From: Sulfurimonas sp. HSL-1656
GTDB lineage: Bacteria > Campylobacterota > Campylobacteria > Campylobacterales > Sulfurimonadaceae
Assembly: GCF_039645585.1 (NCBI RefSeq)
Contig: NZ_CP147915.1
Coordinates: 682,001-746,000, forward strand
Reading direction: 5' to 3'
DNA length: 64,000 nucleotides
Shown: in pieces, positions 4,971 through 41,343 of the stretch
Numbering within the stretch: the stretch's first letter is position 1
How the letters are laid out: each line of letters opens with the position of its first letter
Notes under the pieces: generated by a model
What the model saw: the letters and a program-made list of their open reading frames with translations, nothing else
What the model was told of the DNA's origin: nothing
The model's database searches: none
Program-made: the position numbers and the translations under genes

Positions 4971-5512
4971 GCTTCAGAGGCCTCCAGGGTCAGGATTTTG
5001 ATCTCGTGGTTGGTGTAGATGCAGAGATCCGCCGCGATATGCAGGCTCTCTTCGACGAGGGCTTCGGGGGCCAGGTCCGCGTGCTTTTTCAGGGCGCGCG
5101 CACTGGCGATGGCGTAGTTGCCGCCGCTGCCGATGGAGGCGATCTCTCCGTCTTCGGGCTCAACGACGTCACCGTTGCCGGTGAGGATGAAAATGTGCTC
5201 GGTATTGAGGACGATCATCATCGCTTCGAGACGGCGCAGCACCTTATCCTTGCGCCACGCTTTGGAGAAGTCGATGATGGCCTTGACCATATCGCCTTTG
5301 CGTGCGGAGAGGAACTCCTCGAACATATCAAAGAGGTTGAAAGCGTCCGCCGTGGAGCCGGCAAAGCCGGCCAGAACCTGGCCGTTGTGCAGTTTGCGGA
5401 TCTTGGTAGCGTTGTTCTTGAGGACAGTGTGCCCGAAGGTGACCTGCCCGTCGCCGCCGATGACCGCCTTGCCCTCGCTTTTGTAGGCGAGTATCGTCGT
5501 TGCGTCGAACAT
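4967..5512 (-). CDS. hslV: ATP-dependent protease peptidase subunit HslV
   Basis: HslV is a proteasome-like threonine peptidase. In this 181-residue protein the catalytic threonine is Thr5, in MFDATTIL. The four-residue prefix, instead of a single Met, matches the epsilonproteobacterial form (for example Helicobacter) and implies removal of more than the initiator Met. The [24 protein letters not shown] and CIYTNHEI motifs are intact. The start overlaps the rplI stop (TAATG) and the end overlaps the hslU start, so rplI-hslV-hslU are coupled. Confidence 0.97.
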
Positions 5513-13696: not shown

Positions 13697-14618
13697 CCAG
13701 TGTCTCCGTAGCGAAATGCGACTGCAGCCGTTCTTCGAGCGCCGCGGGAAGCGGGGCCGTAAAACGCATCGCCTCCCCCGTCCGCGGATGGGTGAAGTAA
13801 AGCGTGTAGGCGTGCAGCAGAATACGCTGGATTTTATCGGGATTGCTCTTAATGCCGTATAAATGGTCGCCGAGGATGTGGCGGCTGAAACTCTCCAGGT
13901 GGACGCGGATCTGGTGCGTGCGCCCCGTAAAGAGTTTGCAGGCGATCAGTTCCTCTTTTTCGTCCCTGGAGAGCAGCAGCTTCATAAAAAGGGTCTGCGC
14001 GCTCTTGCCGTGGGGGACGACGGCCATCTTGAGGCGGTTGTGCGGGCTGCGCCCGACCGGCTTGTCGACGAGGGTCAGGTCCTCTTTGAGCGGCGGGGTG
14101 ACGACGGCGAGGTAGTAACGCCCCATGCTTTTGTCCTGGAGCTGTTTGGAGAGGGCGTCGTGGGCCTCGTTCGTTTTGGCGACGATCATCACGCCGCTGG
14201 TACCCTTGTCGAGGCGGTGGACGATGCCGTGGCGCTCCTCGCCGCTCAGTGTCGAGAGGCGGATATCGTGGTGCTTGAGCCAGTCGACGAGGGTCGGTTC
14301 CTTGACGCTGGGGGCGGGGTGGACGGTGAGGCCGCTGGGTTTGTCGATGATGAGCAGGTCGTCGTCCTCATAGAGGATGGGGACGTCGAAATCGATAGGC
14401 TGTGCTGCTTCCGGTTCCATCTGCGGCAGCGTGACCGTGACTTTTTCGCCGGGCTTGAGTTTCACCCCCGGCTTGGCCGCCGCCTTGGCTTCGACGGCGA
14501 CGAGACCGTTCTTGATGAGGTGGGCGATCTGGTTGCGGGGTTCATTCATCGCCTGCCCCAGAAAGGTGTCAAGGCGTTCGCCTCCGGCGGCTTCGAAAGT
14601 CAGGACAGTTGGCTGCAT
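13638..14618 (-). CDS. RluA/RluD-family 23S rRNA pseudouridine synthase
   Basis: The 326-residue protein has an N-terminal S4 domain (GERLDTFLGQ, about 10-70) and a pseudouridine synthase core with the catalytic Asp motif HRLDKGTSGV. The FTGRTHQIRVH and GDHLYG motifs follow. It isomerises uridines in large-subunit rRNA, most likely the RluD sites. I use the ATG at 14616-14618, preceded by AAAGG. An upstream ATG would add 11 atypical residues. The 3' end runs 59 bases into the FN3 lipoprotein gene. Confidence 0.92.
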   Translation of the reverse strand: MQPTVLTFEAAGGERLDTFLGQAMNEPRNQIAHLIKNGLVAVEAKAAAKPGVKLKPGEKVTVTLPQMEPEAAQPIDFDVPILYEDDDLLIIDKPSGLTVHPAPSVKEPTLVDWLKHHDIRLSTLSGEERHGIVHRLDKGTSGVMIVAKTNEAHDALSKQLQDKSMGRYYLAVVTPPLKEDLTLVDKPVGRSPHNRLKMAVVPHGKSAQTLFMKLLLSRDEKEELIACKLFTGRTHQIRVHLESFSRHILGDHLYGIKSNPDKIQRILLHAYTLYFTHPRTGEAMRFTAPLPAALEERLQSHFATETLDETLAPDRIGTLFDTDTAD

Positions 14619-14650
14619 GGGAACCTTTGTTATAATTTGGGCGCTGAGCA

Positions 14651-14729
14651 CTAAGCCTTAAGCATTAAGGCGGAAAGTTGGGTGCCATTTTTTGTTTTCT
14701 TAGCGCTTAACGCTTAATGCTTAACGCTT
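14651..14729. repeat. Heptamer repeats forming an imperfect inverted repeat ahead of rodA
   Basis: The spacer between the rluD-type gene and rodA holds three tandem copies of CTTAAYG at about 14706-14726. A left arm at 14655-14672 (GCCTTAAGCATTAAGGCG) contains the complementary CATTAAG. The two arms could pair across about 35 bases. No T-run follows, so it is not a simple terminator. Function is unknown. Confidence 0.5.
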
Positions 14730-14743
14730 CAAAAGGACGTGCC

Positions 14744-15853
14744 TTGCGCAGAATAGATAGACGCATTTTAGCACACTTCGATTTTGTCATCCCGGCACTG
14801 ATCGTGCCCCTTGTGCTGGTGTCGGGGTGGCTGATCGGGGAGATCCACCCCCTGCTGGCGCACAAGCATCTCGTCTACGTCGGCGTGGGGGCGGTCGTCT
14901 TCACCTTTTTCTTTTTCCTGCCCGTACGGCGGCTGAGCTGGATGATCCCGATCTTCTACTGGTTCAATATCGGGCTGCTGCTCGCCGTCGAGTTCTTCGG
15001 CCATGCGCGCCTGGGGGCGAAACGCTGGATCGAACTCCCCTTTGTCCATTTCACCATGCAGCCATCCGAGCTGATGAAACCGGCGTTCATCCTGATGCTC
15101 GCCTACCTCGTCTCGCGCAACCCGCCGCCCTACGGCGGGTACGGTTGGGCCGCGTTTGTCAAGCTCTCCTTTTTCATTCTGCTCCCCTTTTTCCTCATTG
15201 CCAAAGAGCCGGACCTGGGGACGGCCACCGTCTTGTTGCTGCTGGGGGTGGGGGTGCTTTTCCTCGTCGGGGTGCGCTGGAAGATCTGGCTGACGCTGGC
15301 GGTGGGGTTCATTGTCTCGATGCCGCTCATCTATACCCAGCTGCACGACTACCAGAAGAAGCGGATCACGGACTTTATGAGCGAGAAGCCGAGCTACCAC
15401 GTCCAGCAGTCCATCATCGCGATCGGTTCGGGTGGGGTCGTCGGCAAGGCGAAAGAGGAGGCGACACAGACCCAGATGAAGTTCCTTCCCATCGCGTCGA
15501 GTGACTTCATCTTCGCCTACGTCGTGGAGCGTTTCGGGTTTATCGGGGCGGTGATGCTGATCGGGCTGTATGCCCTCATCATTATCCACCTGCTCGGCAT
15601 CAGCCTCTACACCCACGACCCCTATATCAAGGTCGTCAGTGCATCGGTCTCGCTGCTGATCTTCGTCTATATGGGCGTCAACATCGCGATGACAATAGGC
15701 CTTGCCCCGGTCGTCGGCGTCCCGCTGCCGATGTTCAGTTACGGGGGCAGCAGCTTTGTCAACTTCATGATCCTCTTCGGCATCCTCGAAAACCTGATGG
15801 CCTTCCGCTTTATGGAACTCTACCACCGGCGGGGCAAAAAAAGCTTCGTCTAA
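14744..15853 (+). CDS. rodA: Rod-shape SEDS glycosyltransferase RodA
   Basis: RodA is a SEDS-family peptidoglycan polymerase of the elongation machinery. The protein (369 residues from the chosen start) has about ten membrane helices and the family motifs GAKRWIEL, QPSELMKPA, KEPDLGTA and GLAPVVGVPLPMFSYGGSS. I start it at TTG 14744 because AAAAGGA lies six bases upstream. An in-frame ATG at 14717 lies inside the repeat and lacks a ribosome site. FtsW is the alternative, but the lack of division neighbours and the length favour RodA. Confidence 0.9.
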   Translation: MRRIDRRILAHFDFVIPALIVPLVLVSGWLIGEIHPLLAHKHLVYVGVGAVVFTFFFFLPVRRLSWMIPIFYWFNIGLLLAVEFFGHARLGAKRWIELPFVHFTMQPSELMKPAFILMLAYLVSRNPPPYGGYGWAAFVKLSFFILLPFFLIAKEPDLGTATVLLLLGVGVLFLVGVRWKIWLTLAVGFIVSMPLIYTQLHDYQKKRITDFMSEKPSYHVQQSIIAIGSGGVVGKAKEEATQTQMKFLPIASSDFIFAYVVERFGFIGAVMLIGLYALIIIHLLGISLYTHDPYIKVVSASVSLLIFVYMGVNIAMTIGLAPVVGVPLPMFSYGGSSFVNFMILFGILENLMAFRFMELYHRRGKKSFV

Positions 15854-16809: not shown

Positions 16810-19800
16810 ATGGCGCTCAAAGTCGTAATCTCCCACAAAACCGCTTACCAGTATGACCGTTATGTGTCGCTCTCGCCGCACACCATCCGATTGCGTCCCG
16901 CGCCGCACAGCCGGACACCGATCGAGGCCTACTCGCTCAAGATCAAACCGGACAACCATTTCCTTAACTGGCAGCAGGACCCTTTTGGCAACTACCTCGC
17001 CCGCGTCGTCTTCCCGGAAAAAACGAAAGAGATGAGCATCGACGTCGAGATCATCGCCGACCTGATCACCATCAATCCCTTCGACTTCTTTGTCGACGAG
17101 TATGCGAAAAATTTCCCGTTCAAGTACAAAGCGGGGCTGAAGAAGGAGCTGCTTCCCTACCTGGAGATTACGGACAAGGGCAAAAAGCTCAAAGCGTTCA
17201 TGGATTCCCTCGACCTGAAAACGGAGCGCTCCATTATCGATTTCCTCGTCTACCTCAACATGGAAATCCACAAGTACCTCGACTATACGATCCGTCTCGA
17301 CCCCGGCGTACAGACCTGCGAGGTGACCCTGGGCAACAAGCTGGGGAGCTGCCGCGACTACGCCTGGCTCTTCGTGCAGGTGCTGCGCCACCTGGGGCTC
17401 GCGGCGCGTTTCGTCTCGGGCTACCTCGTCCAGCTGACCGCCGACGTCAAATCCCTCGACGGCCCGAGCGGCCCCGAAGCGGACTTTACGGACCTGCACG
17501 CCTGGACGGAGGTGTACGTCCCGGGCGCGGGGTGGATCGGCCTCGATGCGACCAGCGGCCTCTTCGCCGGGGAGGGGCATATCCCCCTGGCATGTACGCC
17601 GCACTACGACAGTGCCCACGCCATCGACGGCGCCACGGACAAGTGCGAAACGGAGTTCGATTACTCCAACACCGTCACGCGGATCTTCGAATCCCCGCGG
17701 GTGACCAAACCCTACCGCGACGAGCAGTGGGAAGCGATCTACAACCTCGGGTTCGAGGTCGACCGGGAGCTCGAAGCCAACGACGTGCGCCTCTCGATGG
17801 GGGGCGAGCCGACGTTCGTCTCCATTGACGACATGGAGTCCGAGCAGTGGAATACCGAGGCCGACGGCGAACACAAACGCGAACGCGCGGACGTTCTCGC
17901 CCACCGCTTGCTGGGGAGCTTCGGCAAGGGCGGCATGCTGCACTACGCCCAGGGGAAATGGTACCCGGGCGAACCGTTGCCGCGCTGGCAGAAATCGGTC
18001 ATCTGGCGCAAGGACGGCAAACCGATCTGGCGCAACCCGAATCTCTTTGCCGATATGAACGCGACCTACAGCTACACGACCGAGGATGCAAAGCGTTTCT
18101 TGGAGCTGCTCTCCCTGACGCTGGGCGTGAGTGACAAGAACATCGTCAATGCCTATGAGGACCCGGTCTACTACGTTCTCAAAGAGGCGGAGCTCCCCGT
18201 CGACGTCGATCCGGCGAAGTTCGACCTGGACGATCCGCTCGAGCGCCGCACCCTGGCGCAGCTGCTGCAGCAGGGGCTGGCCAACCCGGTCGGCTTCGTG
18301 CTGCCGCTGGGCTACGGCCAGACCCGCTGGATCACCTCCGCATGGGAGTTCCGCCGCGGCAACCTTTTCCTCAGCGCCGGGAACTCGCCGCTGGGGCTGC
18401 GGATGCCGCTGGATTCGCTGATGGAAAAACCGCACGTGGAGCTGGCGCAGAACTTCGAGCCCGACCTTTTCGCCCATGCCCCGGCACTGGGGGATTACCT
18501 CGACGACGCCCGGGCGCGCTGCGAGGCGGCGACGCCGGAGACGACGGCGGCGAACCGCTACAACGCCTTTGTACGCACCGCGATCAGTACGGAAGTGCGT
18601 GACGGTAAGCTCTACATCTTCCTGCCGCCGCTCAACCATACCGAGGCCTTCCTGGACCTCATGGCCTCCATCGAAGCGGTCGCGGCGAAGCTCAACGTCA
18701 AAGTCGTTCTCGAAGGGTACGAACCGGCCCACGACAACCGCATCGAGCGTATCAAAGTCACCCCGGACCCGGGTGTTATCGAAGTCAACATCCACCCGGC
18801 GAAGAACTGGAGCGAACTGACCGAAACGATGCTGGGGCTTTACGAGGATGCCCGCCAGTCGCGCCTGGGAACGGAAAAGTTCATGGTCGACGGCAAGCAC
18901 ACGGGTACGGGCGGGGGGAACCACGTCACGATCGGGGCGATGACGCCGCACGACAGCCCGCTGCTGCGCCGGCCGGAACTGCTGCGCAGCCTCATCACCT
19001 TCTGGCAGCACCACCCGTCGCTCTCCTACCTCTTCTCCGGCGCTTTCATCGGGCCGACGTCCCAGGCGCCGCGCGTCGACGAGGGACGGGCGGAGAACCT
19101 CTACGAGCTGGAGATCGCTTTTGCCCAGATCCCCGAAAACGGAGAGGTGCCGTACTGGCTCACCGACCGGCTTTTCCGCCATATGCTGACCGACATTACC
19201 GGCAACACCCACCGTTCCGAGTTCTGTATCGACAAGCTCTACTCGCCCGATTCGAGCACCGGCCGCCTGGGGATCCTGGAGCTGCGCGGCTTCGACATGC
19301 CTCCGCATTCGCAGATGGCCCTGATGCAGATGCTGCTGGTGCGCACGCTGGTCTCGCTCTTCTGGCGCAAGCCCTACCGCCACAAGCTGGTCCGGTGGGG
19401 AACGCAGCTGCACGACAAGTTCCTGCTGGAACACTACGTCAAAGAGGACATCGCGGATATCGTCCGTTTCCTGAACTCCGAGGGGTACCCCTTCGAGCTG
19501 GACTGGTTCGACCCCTTCTTCGAGTTCCGCTTCCCGCTCTACGGTATGGCGACGGTGGAGAACGTCCACCTCGAACTGCGCGCGGCCATCGAGCCGTGGC
19601 ATGTCCTGGGCGAGGAGAGCGGTTCGCAGGGGACGTCGCGCTACGTCGATTCGTCGCTCGAGCGTGTCCAGGTGAAGGTGAACAACTTCGTCCCCGAACG
19701 CTACGTGCTCACCTGTAACGGCGTCGCGGTCCCGCTCAGCCCGACGGGCATCGAGGGCGAGTTCGTCGCCGGGGTCAAGTACAAGGCGTGGCAGCCGTGG

Positions 19801-20181
19801 TCGGCGCTGCACCCGACCATCGGGGTTGATACCCCGCTCAGCTTCGACGTCGTCGACCGCTGGAACCAGCGCTCCATCGGCGGGATGACCTACTATGTCT
19901 CCCACCCCGGCGGGCGCAGCTACGACACCTTCCCCGTCAACAGCTACGAGGCGGAATCGCGCCGCATCAACCGTTTCTGGGGCTTCAACCATACGCAGGG
20001 AAGCGTTGATGAGGTGCCGACCCATGTCGTCGAACAGACACTGCCTTCAAAAGAGGGAGAGACGACGCGCAAGGTGGCCGAGAAGCATGCCGGCGACAAG
20101 ATCTTTGTCTTCCAGGAGCTGCCGCGCAGTGCGGAGTACCCGCACACGCTCGACCTCAGACGGAAGTGGACCAGGGTGTAA
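16810..20181 (+). CDS. Transglutaminase-like protein fused to DUF2126 putative amidoligase
   Basis: The 1123-residue protein starts at ATG 16810 (AAGG upstream). Residues 1-80 form the beta-rich domain that precedes bacterial transglutaminase folds. Residues about 150-260 are the cysteine-protease-like transglutaminase core with Cys181 (GSCRDYAW), His230 (DLHAWTEVY) and Asp246 (GLDATSG). From about residue 317 the DUF2126 region begins (LSMGGEPTFVS) and carries GKHTGTGGGNHVTIG (about 695) and ILELRGFDMPPHSQMALMQ (about 823). Pfam describes it as a putative amidoligase. A ligase and a thiol peptidase or transferase in one chain suggest making and cleaving amide or isopeptide bonds. It is the first gene of a three-gene operon. 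The substrate is unknown. Confidence 0.88.
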   Translation: MALKVVISHKTAYQYDRYVSLSPHTIRLRPAPHSRTPIEAYSLKIKPDNHFLNWQQDPFGNYLARVVFPEKTKEMSIDVEIIADLITINPFDFFVDEYAKNFPFKYKAGLKKELLPYLEITDKGKKLKAFMDSLDLKTERSIIDFLVYLNMEIHKYLDYTIRLDPGVQTCEVTLGNKLGSCRDYAWLFVQVLRHLGLAARFVSGYLVQLTADVKSLDGPSGPEADFTDLHAWTEVYVPGAGWIGLDATSGLFAGEGHIPLACTPHYDSAHAIDGATDKCETEFDYSNTVTRIFESPRVTKPYRDEQWEAIYNLGFEVDRELEANDVRLSMGGEPTFVSIDDMESEQWNTEADGEHKRERADVLAHRLLGSFGKGGMLHYAQGKWYPGEPLPRWQKSVIWRKDGKPIWRNPNLFADMNATYSYTTEDAKRFLELLSLTLGVSDKNIVNAYEDPVYYVLKEAELPVDVDPAKFDLDDPLERRTLAQLLQQGLANPVGFVLPLGYGQTRWITSAWEFRRGNLFLSAGNSPLGLRMPLDSLMEKPHVELAQNFEPDLFAHAPALGDYLDDARARCEAATPETTAANRYNAFVRTAISTEVRDGKLYIFLPPLNHTEAFLDLMASIEAVAAKLNVKVVLEGYEPAHDNRIERIKVTPDPGVIEVNIHPAKNWSELTETMLGLYEDARQSRLGTEKFMVDGKHTGTGGGNHVTIGAMTPHDSPLLRRPELLRSLITFWQHHPSLSYLFSGAFIGPTSQAPRVDEGRAENLYELEIAFAQIPENGEVPYWLTDRLFRHMLTDITGNTHRSEFCIDKLYSPDSSTGRLGILELRGFDMPPHSQMALMQMLLVRTLVSLFWRKPYRHKLVRWGTQLHDKFLLEHYVKEDIADIVRFLNSEGYPFELDWFDPFFEFRFPLYGMATVENVHLELRAAIEPWHVLGEESGSQGTSRYVDSSLERVQVKVNNFVPERYVLTCNGVAVPLSPTGIEGEFVAGVKYKAWQPWSALHPTIGVDTPLSFDVVDRWNQRSIGGMTYYVSHPGGRSYDTFPVNSYEAESRRINRFWGFNHTQGSVDEVPTHVVEQTLPSKEGETTRKVAEKHAGDKIFVFQELPRSAEYPHTLDLRRKWTRV

Positions 20182-22674
20182 ATGGGCATTTTCGACCGAT
20201 ATTTTTCCGAAAGCTCCTTCGACGAGATGGTCGATGCGCAGCATCAGTGCCGTCCGCACTGGCAGACGATCTGCGACCAGATCGAGGCGGCCGGTATCGA
20301 GGGGCTGAAAGCCAAACAGGCCGAAATTGACTGGAGCCTGGAAGAGAACGGCGTTACCTATAACGTCTACGACACGCCCGACGGCGTCAGCAAGCGGCGC
20401 TGGACCCTCGATCCCATCCCCTTTGTCGTCACGCAGACGGAGTGGCAGGAGGTTGTGCGGGGGCTGCGCCAGCGTGCGAAGCTCTTCGACCTGGTCCTGC
20501 GGGATATCTACGGCGACCAGCACCTGCTGCGGCAGGGGATCCTCCCCGCCGAAGTCGTTTATGCGCACAAGGGGTACGCGCCGGAGATGTTCGGCTTCGG
20601 GAACAAAAAGGATTTCGAGCTCTTCTTCTACGCAACCGACATGGCGCGCGGGCCTGATGGCAAGTTCTGGGTCGTCAATGACCGCATCCAGGCCCCGTCG
20701 GGGCTGGGCTATGCCGTCGAAAACCGCCTGAGCATGAACATCATCGCCAAGTCGCTCTACCCCGGGGTGCACACCCGACGGCTGGCCGGCTTCATCGACG
20801 AGATGAAGGCGATGATCGACCGCCTCAGCGGCGGCGACCGCTCCAAGGCGGCCCTGCTGACGCCCGGGCCGCACAATGAAACCTACTTCGAGCACGCCTA
20901 CCTCAGCTCTTTGCTGGAGATCAGCCTCGTGCAGGGGGAAGATATGCTGGCCAAGGACGGGGCGCTGTGGCTCAAGAACCTGAGCGGCCTGACACGGATC
21001 AACACCCTGCTGCGCCGTGTGGACGACCGCTACTGCGACCCGCTGGAACTCAAAAACGACTCGCACCTCGGGGTCGCGGGGCTCGTCGACGCCGCGCGCC
21101 GGGAGAACCTGGCGATGATCAACCCCGTCGGCAGCGGTATCCTCGAGAACCTCGGCTTCAACCCCTTTATGAAAAACATCGCGCAGTTCTTCCTCGACGA
21201 GGAGCTGATCCTGCCGCAGATCGCCACCTGGTGGTGCGGGCAGCCGGGCGAGCTCGAGTACGTCCTCGAACACCTCGATTCGCTCATCGTCAAGCACATC
21301 GACCGGACCGAAACGGCCCAGGTCTACGTCGGCAGAAAGATGGACGCCCCGGCGCTCGACGCCCTGCGGAAACGCCTGCAGGAGTTCCCGCACCTCTACG
21401 TGGCGCAGGAGGAGATCGGCTTTTCCACCGTGCCGTACTTTACCGGGGAGTCCGTCGAACCGCGCAACGCCGTCATCCGCTCCTACGCCTTCAAGCGGGG
21501 CAGCAAATACTGGGTGATGAACGGCGGGCTTGTGCGCGTCGCCTCGCAGAAAGACGCCTTCCTGATCTCGTCGCAGAAAGGGGGGACCAGCAAGGACCTC
21601 TGGATCGTCGGCGAGGAGGAGGAGCGCGCGCCGAGCAACCCCTTCAAGCAGCTGCCGTGCATCGACGCCTCCATCGACCAGATCCCGACAAGACGCGCGG
21701 AGAACCTCTTTTGGCTCGGACGCTACCTCTCAAGGGCGATCGTGACGACGCGCCTGATCCGCTATGCCGTCAAGCGCCTCATCAATGTCTACCGCGACGA
21801 GTCGTACGCCTCGGCGGAGTCGCAGCACCAGCTGCTGCGCGCGATCACGCATATGACGATGACCTACCCGGGTTTCCTGAACAAGAAAACCGCCGAAAAG
21901 CTGCTGGACAACCCGATGAAAGAGATCATCTCCGTACTCAAAGAGTACAGCCGGATCGGGTCGCTCTCCTTTACGCTGTCGATGCTCTCGGGGGCGAACA
22001 TCAGCATCAAAAATCTGCTGGGCATCGAGGCGTGGAAGCTCTTTGACAAGCTCCAGTGGGAGTGGCAGACCTTCTGCAGCGCCAATACCCGGATGAACCG
22101 CACCATCGTCAACGAGATGGACAAGCTGCATATCAACCTGCTGGCCTACAAGGAGCTCGTCGAGGAGAGCATGTTCCGCGAGCAGGGGCTGGTGCTGTAT
22201 GATATCGGCTACCGGATCGAGAGCGTCCAGCTGCTCATCTCGAAGGCGCGCTCGCTGCTCTGTCCGCGCCAGGAGAAGGCCACGGAGTATGAACTGCTCG
22301 AGGCGCTGCTCAACACCTGCGAAAGCTTCAACGCCTACCGTGCCCATTACCGCAGCGCCCTGCAGCTTGAGAACGTCATCGAGTTCCTGCTGCTCAACCC
22401 GCAGTATCCCAAATCGCTGACCTACCAGACCCAGAAGCTGCTCTCGGACCTCAAAGACCTTCCGAAGTCGCGTACCCACCTCACCGAGTACGAGGCGCCG
22501 ATCTTCCAGGCCTATTCGCGCCTGAAACTTGCGACGGCACAGGCGCTGTTGACCTATGAGGAGTCCGACGGCGTCTACAAGGAGCTCGATACGCTGCTTT
22601 CGGATCTCTCCGATCTCTTTATGAAAGCGTCCGACGAGTTCTCCAAAACCTACTTCTCCCATTATGACGAGTGA
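20182..22674 (+). CDS. Circularly permuted ATP-grasp fused to alpha-E domain
   Basis: The 830-residue protein directly follows the previous stop with no spacer. Residues about 30-480 match the circularly permuted ATP-grasp family (COG2308, DUF404/407), with LTPGPHNETYFEHAYL, LLRRVDDRYCDP and NPVGSGILEN. Residues about 500-830 are the all-helical alpha-E domain (DUF403, COG2307), starting RRAENLFWLGRYLSRA (504-519). ATP-grasp enzymes activate a carboxylate as acyl phosphate and couple it to an amine or thiol; alpha-E is its usual partner, here fused. The minus-strand operon keeps both as separate proteins. The reaction is predicted, not known. Confidence 0.88.
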   Translation: MGIFDRYFSESSFDEMVDAQHQCRPHWQTICDQIEAAGIEGLKAKQAEIDWSLEENGVTYNVYDTPDGVSKRRWTLDPIPFVVTQTEWQEVVRGLRQRAKLFDLVLRDIYGDQHLLRQGILPAEVVYAHKGYAPEMFGFGNKKDFELFFYATDMARGPDGKFWVVNDRIQAPSGLGYAVENRLSMNIIAKSLYPGVHTRRLAGFIDEMKAMIDRLSGGDRSKAALLTPGPHNETYFEHAYLSSLLEISLVQGEDMLAKDGALWLKNLSGLTRINTLLRRVDDRYCDPLELKNDSHLGVAGLVDAARRENLAMINPVGSGILENLGFNPFMKNIAQFFLDEELILPQIATWWCGQPGELEYVLEHLDSLIVKHIDRTETAQVYVGRKMDAPALDALRKRLQEFPHLYVAQEEIGFSTVPYFTGESVEPRNAVIRSYAFKRGSKYWVMNGGLVRVASQKDAFLISSQKGGTSKDLWIVGEEEERAPSNPFKQLPCIDASIDQIPTRRAENLFWLGRYLSRAIVTTRLIRYAVKRLINVYRDESYASAESQHQLLRAITHMTMTYPGFLNKKTAEKLLDNPMKEIISVLKEYSRIGSLSFTLSMLSGANISIKNLLGIEAWKLFDKLQWEWQTFCSANTRMNRTIVNEMDKLHINLLAYKELVEESMFREQGLVLYDIGYRIESVQLLISKARSLLCPRQEKATEYELLEALLNTCESFNAYRAHYRSALQLENVIEFLLLNPQYPKSLTYQTQKLLSDLKDLPKSRTHLTEYEAPIFQAYSRLKLATAQALLTYEESDGVYKELDTLLSDLSDLFMKASDEFSKTYFSHYDE

Positions 22675-22677
22675 ACC

Positions 22678-23652
22678 ATGATCTACGATATCTTCCACGA
22701 AACGGTCTTCCATTATCAGAGCCTGGTGACCTTCAGCCACAACATCGCCCGGCTGAAGCCCAAAGAGGGGCGGGACCAGGAGCTGCTCTCCTTCCGTCTC
22801 GACGTGGAGCCGTACGCGTCGGAGATCCACTCTTTTGTCGATATGTTCGGCAATACCAACCACCACCTGCTGCTGCGCGAACCGCACACCTCGCTGACCG
22901 TGACCGGGCATTCACGGGTGCGCCGCAGGATCAAGGAGGCGGAGCGGGCGATCGAACGCATCAAGGCCGGGGCGCCCACCTATGAAAAAGCGCTGCAGCG
23001 GCTCTCAACTTTTCACGCGCGAGACATCGCTGCCAAGCAGTTCCTTTTCGCCTCCGAACTGATCCCCGTCGAGGTCGGCCCGATACGCGACTATGCCCTG
23101 GCGTCGTTCCATCCCAAGCGGAGCCTGTACGAAGCGGGCGAGGAGCTGATGGGGCGCATCTTCGATGACTTCGAGTTCAACCCCGCCTTCAGCGACCTGA
23201 CGACGCCGGTGGAGACGATTTTCGAGGAGAAAAAAGGGGTCTGCCAGGATTTCGCGCACTTCGCGATCGCCGCGCTGCGCGCCATCGGGTTGCCGGCACG
23301 CTACGTCAGCGGCTATATCGAAACCATCCCGCCCGAAGGTACCGAGAAGCTTTTCGGCGCCGACGCATCGCATGCCTGGGTCTCGTTCTACGTACCCGGA
23401 AGCGGGTGGCTTGACCTCGACCCGACGAACAACATCATCCCCCTGAAACAGCACATCGTCATGGGGCACGGCCGGGATTACAATGATATTTCGCCGCTCA
23501 AAGGGGTCGTGCGCGGCAGCGGGCAGAGCCGTCTCAGCGTCCGTGTGGATGTGCGGCGCGCCGCTTTGGAAGAGGCGGAAGAGACCGCCGCTCCCGCCCA
23601 AACGCAGTCACAGTCACAATCACAATCGTCTTCGCCCTCCGACCCGGTCTAA
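22678..23652 (+). CDS. Transglutaminase-like protein
   Basis: The 324-residue protein has the N-terminal beta domain (about 1-85) and a transglutaminase core with all catalytic residues: Cys189 (GVCQDFAHF), His232 (ASHAWVSFY) and Asp248 (DLDPTNN). It ends with a low-complexity tail rich in alternating Gln and Ser. It is the stand-alone version of the domain that begins the operon's first gene. Such proteins are usually peptidases or acyltransferases. Its stop codon overlaps the stop of the convergent deacylase-like gene. Confidence 0.88.
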   Translation: MIYDIFHETVFHYQSLVTFSHNIARLKPKEGRDQELLSFRLDVEPYASEIHSFVDMFGNTNHHLLLREPHTSLTVTGHSRVRRRIKEAERAIERIKAGAPTYEKALQRLSTFHARDIAAKQFLFASELIPVEVGPIRDYALASFHPKRSLYEAGEELMGRIFDDFEFNPAFSDLTTPVETIFEEKKGVCQDFAHFAIAALRAIGLPARYVSGYIETIPPEGTEKLFGADASHAWVSFYVPGSGWLDLDPTNNIIPLKQHIVMGHGRDYNDISPLKGVVRGSGQSRLSVRVDVRRAALEEAEETAAPAQTQSQSQSQSSSPSDPV

Positions 23653-24581
23653 TGGATCTTGGCGATGCGGTAGGCCACTGCATTCTCGAAGATCAGCGAA
23701 TGCATGTAGGTACAGGTGATCATCCCGTCGCAGGGGGCGAGGAAACGGTGGACGACCTCGCCCTCCAGGGCATGCACGATCTTGCCGATCGTCTCATCTT
23801 TTGAGACCGTCATCCCCGGTTTCTTTGTCGGGATAAAGATCCCGCTATGGGGGCTCTGGACGACCTCGATGCGTTCGCGCGTCACCACCGTCGAATCGTA
23901 CCCGTTGAAGGTCTCGTACCGGATGATGCCGCTGTTGTTCAGGAAGTTGATGAGGCTGTCGAGAATGACCCGGGCGGACTCGGGATCGATCAGGGGCTGG
24001 TGCGGACAGATGACGGAACACGCCTTGGAGCCCCAGAGCTGCCAGTTGTACTGCAGCGACACTGTTTCGATGGATTCGGGCTCGCGGTGGTGGATGATCC
24101 TGAGCCCGAGCCTGCGCGCACTCTCGATATCCTCGTAGCCGGTCTTGTAGAGCTTGACGTAGGGCAGGCAGGTGGCGAGGTCGGAGCGGGTCTCGAGGAC
24201 GATACCGTAGTCGTAGCCCTGGATCGCTTCAAAGAGCTTGTGCGCGATGCGCTGCGTCGTCTCCCCCAGGCCGTAGCCGGGGAACATCATGTTGATGTCG
24301 GTCTTGTCCAGGGGCCAGAAGCGTTCGTTGATATTGAGCGCGTAGTGGTTGACGGAGGGGATGACGAGGATGTCGCCGAGGATCTTCCCGGTACCGAGTT
24401 TGTTGCGCAGGAAGTCGACGAGTTTCGACGCGCTGTAGAGCGGCAGGGTCGTCGCCCCCTCCATGGCGCCGACGACGGCGACGCTCGGGGCCTCGGGGTC
24501 GCTGCCTTCGAAGAGGTAGCCCTCGACGAGCATCGGCGCGCGGCTGAGGGATTCGAGTTTCAGGATCTCAATTTTTTTCAT
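23649..24581 (-). CDS. AstE/AspA-family deacylase paralog lacking zinc ligands
   Basis: The 310-residue protein aligns with its upstream neighbour, a COG3608-type zinc deacylase, over the whole length, including the C-terminal beta domain (APCDGMI). The metal site is gone: the HGDE motif is MEGA (His to Met40, Glu to Ala43) and the later DIHSS is LETRS (His to Glu130). The catalytic Glu segment VVEMG is also not conserved. It is therefore probably a pseudoenzyme, perhaps the regulatory half of a heteromer with the active copy. I start it at the ATG at 24579-24581, 14 bases inside the upstream gene. It is the last gene of its operon. Confidence 0.75.
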   Translation of the reverse strand: MKKIEILKLESLSRAPMLVEGYLFEGSDPEAPSVAVVGAMEGATTLPLYSASKLVDFLRNKLGTGKILGDILVIPSVNHYALNINERFWPLDKTDINMMFPGYGLGETTQRIAHKLFEAIQGYDYGIVLETRSDLATCLPYVKLYKTGYEDIESARRLGLRIIHHREPESIETVSLQYNWQLWGSKACSVICPHQPLIDPESARVILDSLINFLNNSGIIRYETFNGYDSTVVTRERIEVVQSPHSGIFIPTKKPGMTVSKDETIGKIVHALEGEVVHRFLAPCDGMITCTYMHSLIFENAVAYRIAKIH

Positions 24582-25524
24582 CGTGCACTCCGAAAATCCG
24601 TGCGAGCAGGGAACCCTCGTAGACGACGGGGTATTCGCGCAGGGTGAACAGAACACCGCCGTTGGGGGCGTAGAGGGACTCGCGTACCGTGCCGCTGAGC
24701 GGGTCGACGATATCGCCGATCCACTGCCCCGTTTCGATCACTTCGCAGTGGTCGAGGGCCGGGACGAAGAGGCCCGCGGCGGGGGCGTTGATGTAAAAGA
24801 CGTCTCCGACCTCGGACGAGAACGATTCGCGGACCTTGAACTCCGTCGGGGTCTCGATGATCCCCTCTTGTTGCATCAGGTTCAAGATCCCTCGCAGCAG
24901 CTGGCGTCCGTAGGCTTTGGTGAGGCGCATGCCGACGCCCATCTCGACAACGAGGGTCTTCGTGCCGCGGGAGTTCATGGTGTGCGAGAAGGTCGCCTCG
25001 AGCACCGTGACCGCATCATGGATCCAGATGAAGTCGCAGTTGAGCTGTTTGGCCAGCGGGAGCGTCGCCTCCGAGAACTCCTTGTTGATGCGGATCTGCG
25101 GGATCTCGCGCAAAAAGATGTTGGAGGAGTGGATGTCGATAGCGATATCGCTGCCTTCGACGTCCTCGGCCAGGGCATGGACCAGCTGTGCGGGCAGGAA
25201 ATCGTTGCGCGCCCCCGGGAAGGCGCGGTTGAGGTCGATCTCGTAGAGGGGGAAGCCCCGGATGATCGTATCGACCCCCAGGGAATTGACGGCCGGGTAG
25301 AGGTCCACGGTCCCCCGCAATGCTTCGGGGTGGTCGCGCAGCCACGCGGCCAGAAGGTAGATGACGAGCTGCCCTTCGAGTTCGTCGCCGTGGATGCCGC
25401 TGACGATGCTGATGCGCTTGGCATCGGCGTCGGGTTTTTCCGGTGCAAAGCGGGCACGCTGGATGCGCAGCGTTTCCCCCACCGGAAGTTCGGAAGAGAA
25501 GATTTCGGTGATATCGGGGGTCAT
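24568..25524 (-). CDS. Succinylglutamate desuccinylase/aspartoacylase-family zinc deacylase
   Basis: The 318-residue protein has an intact M14-like metal site: His45 and Glu48 in SGIHGDELEG, His132 in DIHSSN, and the catalytic Glu194 in VVEMG. Its C-terminal beta-rich domain (APAAGLF, DPLSGTV) is typical of COG3608. Family members hydrolyse amide bonds of N-acyl amino acids or trim C-terminal residues. In this operon it follows alpha-E by two bases and overlaps the inactive paralog by 14. It probably processes or removes whatever the ATP-grasp enzymes attach. The substrate is unknown. Confidence 0.85.
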   Translation of the reverse strand: MTPDITEIFSSELPVGETLRIQRARFAPEKPDADAKRISIVSGIHGDELEGQLVIYLLAAWLRDHPEALRGTVDLYPAVNSLGVDTIIRGFPLYEIDLNRAFPGARNDFLPAQLVHALAEDVEGSDIAIDIHSSNIFLREIPQIRINKEFSEATLPLAKQLNCDFIWIHDAVTVLEATFSHTMNSRGTKTLVVEMGVGMRLTKAYGRQLLRGILNLMQQEGIIETPTEFKVRESFSSEVGDVFYINAPAAGLFVPALDHCEVIETGQWIGDIVDPLSGTVRESLYAPNGGVLFTLREYPVVYEGSLLARIFGVHDEKN

Positions 25525-25526
25525 AT

Positions 25527-26183
25527 TCAGTAGACGACCAGGTCGTCGATGAGGGCGTTGATGGCGTCGAGGTTGGCCTCTTCGTCCGTGCGGGAGATGG
25601 CCAGCTTGGCCTCGGGCGCAATCTTCTGCGCCGTCTGGAGAATCGTATTGAGGTACTCGATGGGCTCTTCACCGTCTTTGCCGTGGCGCAGGTGAAGGTC
25701 GACTTTCTCGATCAGTTTGCCCAGGCGGACAAAGTGGTCGCTTTTGGTACGGATCAGTCCGCGGTTCATGCTGCCCCAGATCTCGTTGATGAGGGAGAGG
25801 GCGTCGTCGACGAAACGGTAGTCGACATAGACGGCGCTTTTTGACGCATGGTCGAAGAGCTCGGCGAGGTGGATCGTCTCACCGAAGGCGTCCGTGTCGA
25901 TGTAGGCCCGGGAGATGATCGCGTTTTCGCGGGCGAAACGCATGATCTCCGCCAGGTTCGAGGGGTGGTCGCCGAAGATGGCGTTGTCAAGGAATTGGGA
26001 GGCGTTGACGTACTCAAGATCGATCTCGAGCTTCTCGAAATAACGCTTTCCGGCGTTCACGTCCGTGTCGATGACGCAGTCGAAGATGTGGATGACATCG
26101 ACGAGAGTGCTCTCGACCCGCTCCAGGTGGCGTCCGAACCAGTAAAGATTGGTGGCGACGTTGGTACTCAGCAGTTGATCCAT
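25527..26183 (-). CDS. Alpha-E domain protein (DUF403)
   Basis: This 218-residue all-helical protein has the alpha-E signature VATNLYWFGRHLERVESTL at residues 9-27, then helices rich in conserved Arg, Glu and Asp (FARENAIISRAYI, INEIWGSMNRGL). It has no membrane segment. It lies one base after the separate ATP-grasp gene and two before the deacylase gene. Alpha-E proteins accompany circularly permuted ATP-grasp enzymes almost invariably; the biochemical role is unknown. It is a close paralog of the gene at 27813-28634. Confidence 0.87.
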   Translation of the reverse strand: MDQLLSTNVATNLYWFGRHLERVESTLVDVIHIFDCVIDTDVNAGKRYFEKLEIDLEYVNASQFLDNAIFGDHPSNLAEIMRFARENAIISRAYIDTDAFGETIHLAELFDHASKSAVYVDYRFVDDALSLINEIWGSMNRGLIRTKSDHFVRLGKLIEKVDLHLRHGKDGEEPIEYLNTILQTAQKIAPEAKLAISRTDEEANLDAINALIDDLVVY

Positions 26184-26184
26184 C

Positions 26185-27549
26185 TTAGAGCTCCATTACC
26201 CAGGTGTCTTTGAAACCGCCGCCCTGCGACGAGTTGACGAGGTAGTTGCCCGCCTCCATCGCGTAGCGTGTCAGTCCGCACTCCCAGACGTTGACCTTCT
26301 CGCCCATCACGACATAGGCGCGGAAGTCCGCCTTGCGGGGGCTCAGTTCCCCCTTGATCAGACACTCTTCGTCGTAGAACTCGACGAGCTCCTGGGCGAT
26401 AAAGCGGCGCGGGTTGGCTTCGATAATCGTCTTGAGGTCCTCGAGCTGGATCTTCGACATGGCGTGCCCGAACATGACGCCGTAGCCGCCGGCCTCCGCG
26501 ACATCCTTGACGACGAGTTTGTCGATGTTGTCGAAGATGTACTTCTTGTCCTTTTCAAAATAGGGCAGGTAAGTCGGCGCGTTGTGCATGATGGGCTCTT
26601 CGCCCAGGTAGTACTTGATCATCTGCGGCACGAAGTAGTATATCCCTTTGTCGTCCGCCACGCCGTTGCCGACGGCATTCATGATCGCCACGTTGCCCGC
26701 GAGGTAGGCTTCGATGATGCCGGGCACGCCGATGAGGCTTTCGGGGTTGAAGAACTTGGGGTCGAGAAATTCGTCGTCCAGGCGGCGGTAGACCGCCCCG
26801 ACGCGGATGCGACGCCCGTCATAGTTCTTGAAGTAGAGGACCTTGTTCTCCACGACCAGTTCGGCGGCACGGACCAGTTCGGCCCCGATCTGGCCGGCGA
26901 GGTAGCTGTGCTCATAGTAGGCGGAGTTGTAGCGGCCCGGGGTCAGGACGACGTTGATACCGCCGGTATTGACGTGATCCATCGCATTGCGCAGGTACGA
27001 TGAGTACTGCTTGATCGGCTCGATCTTGAGCTCCTCGAAGAACTCCGGGTAGATCTTGCGGTAGGTGTCGCGGATGGAGAGGGGGTAGCTCGCACCGCTG
27101 GGGACGCGCAGGTTGTCCTCGAGGATGACCCATTCGTCGCTCTGGGTGTCCTTGACAAGGTCGATCCCGTTGATGTGGGTCCGGATCTTCTGCGAGGGGG
27201 AGAAACCGACGAACTCCTTGAGGTACCCTTTGGCCTGGTGGATGAAGGTTTCGGGAATGATACCGTCCTTGACGATCTTCGCATCGGTGTAGAGGTCTTC
27301 CAGGAAGAGGTTCAGCGCGGTGATACGCTGCTCGAGGCCGCGCTGCATCTTGCCGAACTCCTGTTTGGAAATGATACGGGGGATGACATCAAAGGGCAGT
27401 GAACGTTCGATAAAGTTGCCGTCTTTGTAGAGATTGAAATTGACAGCGAACTTGTCCATATAGCGCTGAAACTCTTCGACTTTCTGTCGATCCTGCCGGG
27501 AAAAAATTTCCCAGAACTTTTCGTGTAGTTTTCCGGTTTCTTCTATCAA
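26185..27549 (-). CDS. Circularly permuted ATP-grasp protein (COG2308)
   Basis: The 454-residue protein is the stand-alone version of the ATP-grasp half at 20182. It shares the order LTPGRYNSAYYEHSYLA (about 200), YRRLDDEFLDP, MNAVGNGVADDKGIYYFVPQ and, near the end, ADFRAYVVMG and SSQGGGFKDTW. It should use ATP to join a carboxylate to an amine. Divergence from the plus-strand copy suggests a second substrate rather than a recent duplicate. It begins an operon with alpha-E and the two deacylase-family genes. A strong palindrome lies about 40 bp upstream. Confidence 0.87.
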   Translation of the reverse strand: MIEETGKLHEKFWEIFSRQDRQKVEEFQRYMDKFAVNFNLYKDGNFIERSLPFDVIPRIISKQEFGKMQRGLEQRITALNLFLEDLYTDAKIVKDGIIPETFIHQAKGYLKEFVGFSPSQKIRTHINGIDLVKDTQSDEWVILEDNLRVPSGASYPLSIRDTYRKIYPEFFEELKIEPIKQYSSYLRNAMDHVNTGGINVVLTPGRYNSAYYEHSYLAGQIGAELVRAAELVVENKVLYFKNYDGRRIRVGAVYRRLDDEFLDPKFFNPESLIGVPGIIEAYLAGNVAIMNAVGNGVADDKGIYYFVPQMIKYYLGEEPIMHNAPTYLPYFEKDKKYIFDNIDKLVVKDVAEAGGYGVMFGHAMSKIQLEDLKTIIEANPRRFIAQELVEFYDEECLIKGELSPRKADFRAYVVMGEKVNVWECGLTRYAMEAGNYLVNSSQGGGFKDTWVMEL

Positions 27550-27584
27550 TGTATCTCCCTTGAAGCTTTTATGCGAACATCACT

Positions 27585-27612
27585 CCCTTCCGTGGAACCA
27601 CGGTGCCAAGGG
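27585..27612 (-). promoter_or_regulatory. Palindrome/hairpin upstream of the minus-strand ATP-grasp operon
   Basis: CCGTGG-AA-CCACGG is a perfect 14-bp palindrome at 27590-27603, extended by CCCTT at 27585-27589 and AAGGG at 27608-27612. It lies 36 bases before the ATG at 27549, so it could be a leader hairpin or an operator. The rest of the 263-bp gap is AT-rich with no gene that I can support. Confidence 0.5.
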
Positions 27613-27812
27613 TGGTGTGGGTATAAAAGATCATATTGCATGTTCTATGAGAAAATGCTTTTATTTTGTGTTTTTGTGATTTTGTTTTTGCGTCAATTCA
27701 CGGCGGGCTAACCGCCACGGTCCGTCGACTTGATGAACAGGCGTTCTTTCGGGATGACCCGGAGGCCGTTTCCGGCGGCACGAGGGCGATAAACGGCGCG
27801 TTCCCCCTGCAT

Positions 27813-28634
27813 CTATGCCACTACCAGGTTGTCGAAGAGGTCGTTGATGGCATCGAGGTTTGCTTCGTCGTCTTTTTCGTCGATGGGCATCTCGGCCTCG
27901 GGCGCGATGCGCTGTGCGGTGATGAGGATATTGTGCAGGTAGACGACCGATTCGTCCCCGTTCTTTCCGTGGCGGAGGTGGAGGTCGACCTTTTCGATCA
28001 GTTTGCCCAGTCGGATGAACTGGTCGCTCTTGCGCCGCAGCAGACCGCGGGCCATGATTCCCCAGATCTCATTGATGAGGGAGAGTGCATCGCCGATGAA
28101 GCGGTAGTCGACCTTGGCGTCGGTTTTGGCCGAGATGTCAAGGAGGTTGAAGAGCCTGATCGCCTCTCCGAAGGCTTCCGCATCGAGGTAGGGGCGGCAG
28201 ATGATGGCGTTCTCGCGGGCGCTGCTCATAATGCGGGCCAGGTTGGAGGGGTGGTCGCCGAAGACGGCCTGCTGCAGGAAGTCCTGCGCGTTCTTGTACT
28301 GCAGTTCGATGCCGAGATCCTCGAAGTAGCGTACGCCTGCTTCTTTATCGGTGTCAATGACACTGTTAAAGAGTTCCAGTACGTCGATCAGGGTCGTTTC
28401 GACGCGCTGCAGGTGGCGGCCGAACCAGTAGAGGTTGGTGGCGACGTAGGTGGTGAGCAGCTGGTGCTTATGGCTGTTCTGGGGCCAGGTTTCGACGAAT
28501 TTGATGCTCGGGTACTGCCGGTAGTCGGCATAGCCGTTGAGGTAGTCGCGCAGCCTTTTGAAAAGCGTCACGGCATTGAAAGTCCAGATATGTTTCGGGT
28601 CTCTGTCGACCGGGGGTACGTGTACTGCGTTCAT
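27813..28634 (-). CDS. Alpha-E domain protein with N-terminal extension
   Basis: The 273-residue protein is an alpha-E (DUF403) paralog of the gene at 25527-26183: VATNLYWFGRHLQRVETTL begins at about residue 64 and similarity continues to the end (EEANLDAIND). It carries an extra N-terminal segment of about 60 residues, rich in aromatic and basic residues, not seen in the other copy. GGAGG precedes the ATG and TATAAT (minus strand, 28703-28708) lies about 70 bases upstream, so it has its own promoter. It could serve either ATP-grasp enzyme. Confidence 0.85.
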   Translation of the reverse strand: MNAVHVPPVDRDPKHIWTFNAVTLFKRLRDYLNGYADYRQYPSIKFVETWPQNSHKHQLLTTYVATNLYWFGRHLQRVETTLIDVLELFNSVIDTDKEAGVRYFEDLGIELQYKNAQDFLQQAVFGDHPSNLARIMSSARENAIICRPYLDAEAFGEAIRLFNLLDISAKTDAKVDYRFIGDALSLINEIWGIMARGLLRRKSDQFIRLGKLIEKVDLHLRHGKNGDESVVYLHNILITAQRIAPEAEMPIDEKDDEANLDAINDLFDNLVVA

Positions 28635-28811: not shown

Positions 28812-29681
28812 TCACTCGAAAACGTAGGTGAGTTTGAACATCAGCCCGGCGGAGGGTTTGATGCGGTAGCTCTCGAGGGCGTCGGCCGCATGGTCGTAGA
28901 GGTGGATCTCCCGCCTGAAAGCGTAGAGCAGGTCGCTGCTGAACTCCCACTGCTCCGCCGCGCTCAGGCGCACCCCGGTGCTCACCTGGTAGTCCTGGGC
29001 CTCCAGATAGCCCCGGGGTTCGATGCCGCTGTCGTCTGCAAGCCTTATGACGGCCTGCGAAAAGAGGAAGCCGGCCCGCAGCAAAACGCCGGGGGCGACA
29101 TGGTACCCGGCAAAGGCGCGCGGGAAACCGACGACGGCGGTAAACCCGTCGTCGGCACGGGCGCGGTAGCTGTAGCCGATGACGGGGAGGGCGAGGGTCG
29201 TGATGGGGTGGTAGTTGACGAAGGCCCCTATCTGCAGCGAGTGATCGTTGTCGATCTTGTAGGCGAAAAAACCGAAGATCCCCCCGCCCAGGGCATTGCC
29301 GTCGAGCTCGCGTTCGTAGGTGGCGTTCATGTTCACGGAGAAGAGCATGTTCCAGTGCGGGTCCAGGCGCTGAAAAAAGTTGCCGAACACCCTGAACTGG
29401 TTCATCTGTTCGATGGGGGCCTTCCCCCGGTAAAACGGGAGGCTCTGTTCATCTTTCCAGCTGAAACGCCACCGCGCATAGTTGATGCCGCCGAAGGCGT
29501 TGTTGATCTTGACGTTGTACTTGCCCGTGCTGACCTTGGCGTCGTAGCCGGAAATGCCGCTTTCGGCAAGCCGTACCGCTTCGGCGGAGAGTTTCGGCTG
29601 GACCATCTTTTCGAGCAGCGATGGGCGCTCCTGTGCGGCGAGGGATGCGACCATGACAAAGAGCAGGAAGAGCGCCGGCAT
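28812..29681 (-). CDS. Outer-membrane beta-barrel protein of unknown function
   Basis: The 289-residue protein has a signal peptide (MPALFLLFVMVASLAA) and then alternating strands with aromatic girdles (GIFGFFAYKID, LQIGAFVNYHPITTL). It ends in Phe-Glu after a hydrophobic strand (GLMFKLTYVFE), as in barrels. No transport motif is recognisable. I prefer the second of two close ATGs (29679-29681), because AAAGG would sit directly on the first. It looks monocistronic. Confidence 0.7.
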   Translation of the reverse strand: MPALFLLFVMVASLAAQERPSLLEKMVQPKLSAEAVRLAESGISGYDAKVSTGKYNVKINNAFGGINYARWRFSWKDEQSLPFYRGKAPIEQMNQFRVFGNFFQRLDPHWNMLFSVNMNATYERELDGNALGGGIFGFFAYKIDNDHSLQIGAFVNYHPITTLALPVIGYSYRARADDGFTAVVGFPRAFAGYHVAPGVLLRAGFLFSQAVIRLADDSGIEPRGYLEAQDYQVSTGVRLSAAEQWEFSSDLLYAFRREIHLYDHAADALESYRIKPSAGLMFKLTYVFE

Positions 29682-29800
29682 CTGCATCCTTTCTCAGGGG
29701 AGATAGAGGAGGGTATACCAACTTTCTTTAAACTCTGCGAAGCGGCAGGAGCCTATGCCACCCCTTTAGCCGGCCTTTTGTTCCGGCAGGGCGCGGGGCC

Positions 29801-36740: not shown

Positions 36741-36790
36741 AACAAACCTTTCTCTATATATAGGGGTTGATATTTCGTTGTTGCTGACGT

Positions 36791-36796
36791 ATTATG
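36791..36796 (-). promoter_or_regulatory. Possible -10 of the nitrate reductase promoter
   Basis: On the minus strand this reads CATAAT, 51 bases before the ATG. The -35 is weak, consistent with activation from the inverted repeat at 36827-36845. Confidence 0.35.
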
Positions 36797-36826
36797 ACAT
36801 ACTTTGCTAAGAAAATATTAAGACTA

Positions 36827-36845
36827 TTGTATAAAAAACATACAA
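36827..36845. promoter_or_regulatory. Inverted repeat between the divergent nitrate genes
   Basis: TTGTAT-N7-ATACAA sits about 50 bp from both inferred transcription starts, an activator-like position for each promoter. A related element lies upstream of focA at 44831-44851. The binding protein is unknown. Confidence 0.5.
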
Positions 36846-36853
36846 ATAAATAG

Positions 36854-36882
36854 TTAAATTCATCCCTATAGCATGCCATAAT
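36854..36882 (+). promoter_or_regulatory. Possible promoter of the transporter operon
   Basis: TTAAAT (36854-36859) and CATAAT (36877-36882) are separated by 17 bases and lie 45 bases before the ATG at 36927. Confidence 0.4.
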
Positions 36883-36926
36883 GGTGCAACCGAAACAGAG
36901 TTTCAAAAAAAATAAAGGTTAAAGCA

Positions 36927-38327: not shown

Positions 38328-38358
38328 GTCCGGCCGTTTGTGCTGAAAACAGGAAAAC

Positions 38359-39168: not shown

Positions 39169-39178
39169 GGAGGACAGC

Positions 39179-39970: not shown

Positions 39971-39974
39971 ACAC

Positions 39975-40088: not shown

Positions 40089-40111
40089 GAGTTTTTAGAA
40101 GGATAAATTGA

Positions 40112-41335: not shown

Positions 41336-41343
41336 GCGTTCGT

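Follow-up and report, generated by a model that had tools for sequence, protein, structure and literature searches.

Introduction

ATP-grasp enzymes form amides by way of acyl-phosphates, and AstE/AspA enzymes hydrolyze amides that adjoin a free carboxylate. Two kinds of gene cluster stand closest to the locus described here. In published Anbu operons, genes for an ATP-grasp protein, an alpha-E protein, and a transglutaminase (TG) are followed by a protease gene (PMC5666114; PMC6376114), an order that we also find on a Klebsiella plasmid, where the last gene codes for a proteasome-type protease. In clusters marked by the putative amidoligase domain DUF2126, exemplified by an Enterobacter plasmid, a stand-alone ATP-grasp, an alpha-E protein, a TG-DUF2126 fusion, an ATP-grasp/alpha-E fusion, and a further TG form a single operon; a Caballeronia plasmid has the same arrangement with one interposed gene. 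Here, we analyze a 64,000-nucleotide stretch (the window) of the genome of Sulfurimonas sp. HSL-1656 (NZ_CP147915.1, positions 682,001 to 746,000; 2.56 Mb, one contig), in which two convergent operons carry these five ligase genes together with an adjacent pair of AstE homologs. We propose that the pair belongs to a module found across phyla and, tentatively, that the locus encodes a reversible amide-ligation system.

Results

An apparently active AstE homolog is paired with a putative pseudo-enzyme

The minus-strand operon ends with g5 and g4 (Table 1), which the original prediction for this DNA had described as two AstE-family deacylase-like proteins. In an alignment of 98 g5 and 94 g4 sequences (a few counted twice, some loci having been reached by two routes), g5 conserves both zinc histidines, the zinc-ligand glutamate, and the catalytic glutamate in 98/98, as well as the Asn-Arg pair that binds a carboxylate (Asn in 98/98, Arg in 96/98). 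Neither zinc histidine occurs in any g4 sequence (0/94 each), and the catalytic glutamate is likewise found in 0/94. Profile matches to the 2qj8 and DoeB structures show that g4 is still a clear homolog; g5 is related to the structures 3cdx, 2qj8, and 6twl. With both histidines and the catalytic glutamate missing in 94/94, g4 is a homolog of the AstE/AspA zinc deacylases and not one of them. The claim of two AstE-family members thus holds as to homology, and that of two deacylases is narrowed to one: g5 is apparently an active zinc hydrolase, and g4 apparently a pseudo-enzyme.

The pair is part of a module that recurs across phyla

Searching GTDB genomes with an alignment of g5 gave at least 562 relatives, the best 80 of which were kept as named loci: 29 Campylobacterota records (L066-L094) and 51 others, mostly from Lachnospiraceae and Ruminococcus, with some Negativicutes, some Methanomethylophilaceae archaea, and one member of the Fibrimonadales. 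The gene order is fixed in Clostridia, Negativicutes, Methanomethylophilaceae, and Campylobacterota, and reads ATP-grasp, alpha-E, a short transglutaminase (TG3) that may be present or absent, AstE, and pseudo-AstE. Among best-80 loci with adequate flanks, g5 is directly followed by g4 in 73/74 and preceded by ATP-grasp and alpha-E in 66/68, and TG3 stands between alpha-E and g5 in 38 of the 42 loci from outside the Campylobacterota. The pairwise distances of the five module proteins correlate (Spearman 0.67-0.83, 41 loci). In an ATP-grasp tree, all AstE-linked members form one branch with full support (Shimodaira-Hasegawa-like approximate likelihood ratio test, SH-aLRT, 100), apart from the Anbu-type (Klebsiella, Paracoccus) and DUF2126-type (Enterobacter, Caballeronia) references; this is a quick tree with some long reference branches, and its rooting is tentative. 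By gene order and sequence, ATP-grasp, alpha-E, optional TG, AstE, and pseudo-AstE constitute a module of its own. Since g4 is kept beside g5 in all testable cases but one, across phyla and in an archaeal group, this pairing of a dead paralog with a live one points to a two-subunit enzyme.

Individual loci show further features. The module of the Methanomethylophilaceae loci L111, L115, and L124 includes live and dead AstE genes, and the alpha-E of L124 was undetected as a separate open reading frame (ORF). At L136 and L138 (Fibrimonadales and one Lachnospiraceae metagenome-assembled genome), the g5-g4 pair has no neighboring ATP-grasp. The catalytic cysteine of TG3 is replaced by serine in 2 of 6 aligned Campylobacterota sequences and by arginine in 1 of 47 from the best-80 loci. 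A gene of ~451-453 codons stands beside the ATP-grasp in the Sulfurospirillum group (L044:17056-18411 and neighbors L046, L049, L050, L052, L054, and L056), and its product at L044, the one tested, matches no Pfam family.

The AstE pair sits in the operon position of Anbu

In arrangement, the module matches an Anbu operon with the AstE pair in place of the proteasome-like peptidase. Anbu-like ORFs are absent from the surroundings of every module, and all 20 cluster-bearing Campylobacterota genomes lack an Anbu-like gene; a single HslV-size proteasome-family gene is present in 19 of them and none in the other. An Anbu encoded elsewhere in the genome of the window was considered and rejected: the sole proteasome-family gene is HslV-like and lies beside an HslU-like ATPase gene (Table 1). 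It is conceivable, if somewhat doubtful, that AstE and pseudo-AstE form an obligate hetero-oligomeric eraser that fills the hydrolase slot of Anbu in a widespread bacterial and archaeal branch. If so, the ATP-grasp/alpha-E system would come in a third, as yet undescribed form, and the requirement common to Anbu and AstE would narrow the product to an amide beside a free carboxylate. In the searchable literature, we found no description of, or name for, AstE paired with ATP-grasp/transglutaminase or with alpha-E; one may exist elsewhere, and Iyer et al. (2009) may mention it. As far as that literature shows, the AstE/pseudo-AstE module is undescribed. The original prediction had applied that word to the whole pathway, which is fairer for the AstE pair and too strong for the plus-strand operon, already of a known predicted kind for whose family published predictions exist.

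A ligase set that ends in a hydrolase could also serve protein tagging, in which proteins would receive amino acids or a short peptide from ATP-grasp and alpha-E and lose them again through the AstE pair. Tubulin glutamylation (ATP-grasp TTLL ligases versus M14 carboxypeptidases) and RimK/RimB offer functional parallels, an ATP-grasp ligase with an M14-type hydrolase being the same pairing; g5 retains the residues that bind a free carboxylate; and tagging was predicted for the Anbu form by Iyer et al. (2009), as that work is cited in PMC5666114 and PMC6376114. However, the module contains no conserved gene for a tag precursor, and the usual substrates of AstE-family enzymes are small N-acyl amino acids. 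We regard tagging as unlikely.

Distribution and a transglutaminase trade-off connect the two operons

We next turn to the 249 Campylobacterota genomes sampled from the class of the window. DUF2126 occurs in 16 of them, the stand-alone ATP-grasp in 20, and an adjacent AstE pair in 18, and the 20 genomes with the stand-alone ATP-grasp include all 16 with DUF2126 and all 18 with the pair. The range of the plus operon is therefore nested in that of the minus operon. On the question of independent distribution raised with the original prediction, every genome with the plus operon also has the minus ligase (16/16), and 4/20 genomes with the minus operon lack the plus operon, so that the two are neither independent nor identical in range. 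They sit on separate contigs in genomes G044 and G176. In G044, which is Arcobacter-like, the plus operon includes a gene for a pyridoxal-phosphate enzyme of Cys/Met metabolism and is followed by one for a class I/II aminotransferase (L042:9352-10578, 13993-15081).

TG3 is absent from the minus operon of the window. It is missing from 11 of the 20 Campylobacterota genomes, all 11 of which have the plus operon, and present in the other 9, 4 of which lack it. We extended the comparison by a DUF2126 search in further genomes reached through the loci; the plus operon was found in 24/25 TG3-less genomes (L088 being scored on the TG2 and fused ATP-grasp genes found at a contig end) and in 5/18 TG3-bearing ones, leaving 13/18 without. 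The association of TG3 loss with the plus operon gives Fisher values of 3e-6 overall and 0.004 within Campylobacterota, on rows that are not independent (L074 is G044). The simplest reading is that the transglutaminase of the plus operon can stand in for TG3, and therefore that both operons act on one product. The trade-off suggests a single working system behind two clusters that are usually described separately. The earlier view of an amidoligase-type system with functionally linked operons is upheld.

The patchy distribution of the cluster (20/249) would also suit biosynthesis of a secondary metabolite or cell-envelope peptide, with AstE stripping a protecting acyl group, and pathways of these kinds commonly combine an amidoligase with a deacylase. 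Yet the module has no neighbor, conserved between phyla, that codes for a transporter, carrier protein, precursor peptide, or tailoring enzyme, and we hold this explanation to be very improbable.

Ligases and transglutaminases look intact

The original prediction had named two transglutaminases with complete Cys-His-Asp triads, and both triads are there: C181/H230/D246 in the TG-DUF2126 fusion, conserved in 16/16 orthologs, and C189/H232/D248 in TG2. Measured against the residues near-invariant across 80 ATP-grasps, the stand-alone g7 shows zero deviations and the fused copy three conservative changes (D for N, M for L, and I for V). Both are related to the solved structure 3n6x (E 3.5e-117 for g7, 1.7e-72 for the fusion). 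A decayed ligase copy, which the original prediction had proposed to check for, is thus rejected, and both ATP-grasps and both transglutaminases look intact. The doubling of the ligase set, in turn, had been thought to make the locus stand out; it proves ordinary, because the same five genes are found on the Enterobacter and Caballeronia plasmids, and DUF2126 clusters carry it regularly.

The DUF2126 fold is said to be that of a glutamine-synthetase-like, circularly permuted ligase; our AlphaFold model of the domain is unusable (predicted local distance difference test, pLDDT, 48). Among the alpha-E proteins, residues W15, G17, R18, R22, F64, N87, R92, and E159 of g6 are invariant in 48 sequences. 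The structure model of g6 is all-helical and confident (pLDDT 93.6), with zero Foldseek matches at E <= 0.001 and, from a second aligner, only small helical-bundle matches of a size usual for helical models, and it says nothing about function. Since the extra alpha-E protein g8 is 67% identical to g6 and has no counterpart upstream of the ATP-grasp at the other 19 Campylobacterota loci, g8 is a lineage-specific duplicate.

Layout of the locus

Eight ORFs make up the locus, seven in two convergent operons and one a lone alpha-E gene, and every domain of their products scores above its Pfam cut-off, in agreement with the inventory given in the original prediction. Gaps in the plus operon are 0 and 3 bp; genes of the minus operon are separated by 1 bp and 2 bp, and the last two overlap by 11 bp. 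The operons meet tail to tail with an overlap of 4 bp, and g8 lies 263 bp upstream of the minus operon. The start given for g4 is the ATG conserved with its orthologs, the mechanical ORF extending to 24656. Upstream of g8 is a 291-aa gene that has no Pfam match; by eye, its product starts like a signal peptide, and its sequence resembles that of outer-membrane proteins.

Table 1. Features of the locus and its surroundings, in window coordinates (aa, amino acids)
Feature	Position	Strand	Length	Domains, scores, and remarks
HslV-like gene	4988-5509			Adjoins HslU-like ATPase gene
TG-DUF2126 fusion (transglutaminase + putative amidoligase), plus operon gene 1	16810..20181	+	1123 aa	PF08379, PF01841, PF09899, 1283 bits (Bact_transglu_N + Transglut_core + DUF2126)
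Circularly permuted ATP-grasp/alpha-E fusion, plus operon gene 2	20182..22674	+	830 aa	PF14403 435 bits, PF04168 167 bits
TG2, stand-alone transglutaminase-like protein, plus operon gene 3	22678..23652	+	324 aa	PF08379 + PF01841
g4, putative pseudo-AstE, AstE/AspA homolog without zinc site	23649..24578	-		PF24827 (AstE_AspA_cat) 33 bits, cut-off 25
g5, AstE-type zinc deacylase/carboxypeptidase-like, site intact	24568..25524	-	318 aa	PF24827 60 bits, cut-off 25
g6, alpha-E protein	25527..26183	-	218 aa	PF04168 49.9 bits
g7, stand-alone circularly permuted ATP-grasp, minus operon gene 1	26185..27549	-	454 aa	PF14403 (CP_ATPgrasp_2) 446.6 bits; TTG start
Sigma-54-like -24/-12 site	27593-27608	-		TTGGCACCGTGGTTCCA, one mismatch, ~45 bp upstream of g7
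g8, extra alpha-E protein, outside tight operon	27813..28634	-	273 aa	Pfam Alpha-E
Gene upstream of g8	28812-29687	-	291 aa	
Assimilatory nitrate island	34728-48139			Molybdopterin oxidoreductase, NrtA- and NrtB-like transporter genes, siroheme synthase, NirA-type reductase (677 aa ORF), PP2C + Ser/Thr kinase fusion

A possible link to nitrogen

The nitrate island, 6 kb from the cluster, bears on a further explanation, nitrogen-scavenging catabolism, in which the ligases would glutamylate or acylate amines or amino acids for degradation, and the transglutaminases and the AstE hydrolase would free the nitrogen, as in gamma-glutamyl-putrescine catabolism. Related clusters elsewhere are linked to nitrogen: the Pseudomonas putida Anbu operon PP_2685-2688 is listed as NtrB/NtrC-controlled, and three of its genes rise 11- to 37-fold when nitrogen is limiting, as urtABCD also rise (PMC7801951; also PMC3325844), the Burkholderia cenocepacia DUF403/404/407/transglutaminase cluster I35_5080-83 is NtrC-dependent (PMC5491218), and urea genes co-vary with DUF403/404/407 in marine metagenomes (PMC3597751). 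An NrtA-like gene is found in 7/20 cluster genomes versus 5/229 others (uncorrected p = 4e-6), and some clostridial modules (L126, L127, L131, and L135) adjoin amino-acid ABC (ATP-binding cassette) transporter-like genes, an uncontrolled observation.

On the other side, nearly all same-family relatives have the assimilatory nitrite reductase NirA, cluster or not; the cluster genomes of the Sulfurospirillum group (f10) have no strong NirA or NrtA; the island was seen close to the cluster only in the genome of the window; and neither operon contains an amine oxidase or dehydrogenase gene. The sigma-54-like site upstream of g7 (Table 1) was considered as a sigma-54/NtrC promoter and rejected, 19 orthologous upstream regions showing nothing above background. 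Because NirA does not track the cluster, the link between nitrate island and cluster is weak, despite the co-occurrence with NrtA. Nitrogen limitation as a cue for the cluster is a plausible hypothesis by analogy with other phyla (Pseudomonas, Burkholderia), and it stays at that here because NirA is common without the cluster, the f10 genomes lack strong NirA and NrtA, and the sigma-54-like site is unconserved. Nitrogen scavenging as the role of the system seems to us somewhat unlikely. At a clostridial locus (L103 1-1554), genes that by eye resemble those for a glutamine synthetase and an ANTAR-type regulator lie upstream of the module, at a distance of a few genes.

Discussion

We come close to an even chance, and no higher, for the reading that we prefer, namely that the locus is a reversible amide-ligation (writer/eraser) system made of two ligase sets of known type and a distinctive hydrolase pair. 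We read it so because the catalytic residues of both transglutaminases and of g5 are intact and neither ATP-grasp shows decay, because the zinc site of g4 is lost in every homolog while the module order is fixed and co-inherited, and because the pair occupies the position of Anbu and the TG3-less minus module depends on the plus operon. Each circularly permuted ATP-grasp, with alpha-E as its obligate partner, would activate a carboxylate as an acyl-phosphate and join it to an amine, and the TG-DUF2126 protein would add a second amidoligase activity. The transglutaminase-like cysteine enzymes may then transfer or cleave the resulting iso-amide, and g5 would hydrolyze the amide next to the free carboxylate, undoing the ATP-grasp addition. 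The catalytically dead partner g4 may hold, position, or regulate g5 or its substrate, probably as a hetero-oligomer. ATP-dependent phosphate release has been reported for the ATP-grasp of the Yersinia bercovieri Anbu operon (PMC6376114).

Several points weigh against this reading. Pull-downs of Anbu-operon proteins gave no specific complex, and no peptidase activity was found for Anbu (PMC6376114). In our data, the counted genomes share ancestry, which keeps the Fisher values from being independent tests, and one of the 25 TG3-less assemblies, the draft L085, shows no DUF2126, the sole exception. Two genomes, G122 and G194, have the five genes of both ligase sets but lack the AstE pair and can thus dispense with the hydrolase; their ATP-grasps nest within the AstE-linked Campylobacterota branch of the tree, which suggests that they lost the pair. 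Finally, small metabolites are also substrates of AstE-family enzymes, so that a peptide or protein substrate is not required.

An AstE-type hydrolase changes the problem of what ATP-grasp, alpha-E, and transglutaminase make, and of what Anbu does, by bringing in an enzyme class with known chemistry and assays. The module occurs in culturable gut Clostridia (Ruminococcus albus, Mediterraneibacter) and in Sulfurospirillum cavolei.

Compared with the AstE, AspA, and DoeB deacylases (3cdx, 2qj8, and 6twl), g5 can be aligned for most of its length, with every zinc and catalytic residue retained; it differs in being only ~30% identical to plasmid-borne AstE homologs and in being paired with a dead paralog. 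With the module of Clostridia, Negativicutes, and Methanomethylophilaceae, the window shares genes, order, and the active-site pattern of g5 and g4, but its copy has lost its own transglutaminase and gained an extra alpha-E gene. The likeness to Anbu operons (Klebsiella and Paracoccus plasmids) lies in the module's first three families and their order, with a hydrolase last, and in a circularly permuted ATP-grasp with an adjoining alpha-E gene. In contrast to them, the hydrolase of the window is an AstE-type zinc enzyme with a pseudo-AstE instead of Anbu, the AstE-linked ATP-grasps fall on a separate branch, and no transglutaminase follows alpha-E in the minus operon, the plus operon supplying one. 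All five components of a DUF2126-type cluster are present (TG-DUF2126, ATP-grasp/alpha-E fusion, TG, stand-alone ATP-grasp, and alpha-E), whereas the ATP-grasp and alpha-E part here is joined to the AstE pair in a convergent operon and has an ATP-grasp of the AstE-linked branch. Taken together, the locus is a hybrid: a DUF2126 set whose stand-alone ATP-grasp and alpha-E unit is of the AstE-linked kind.

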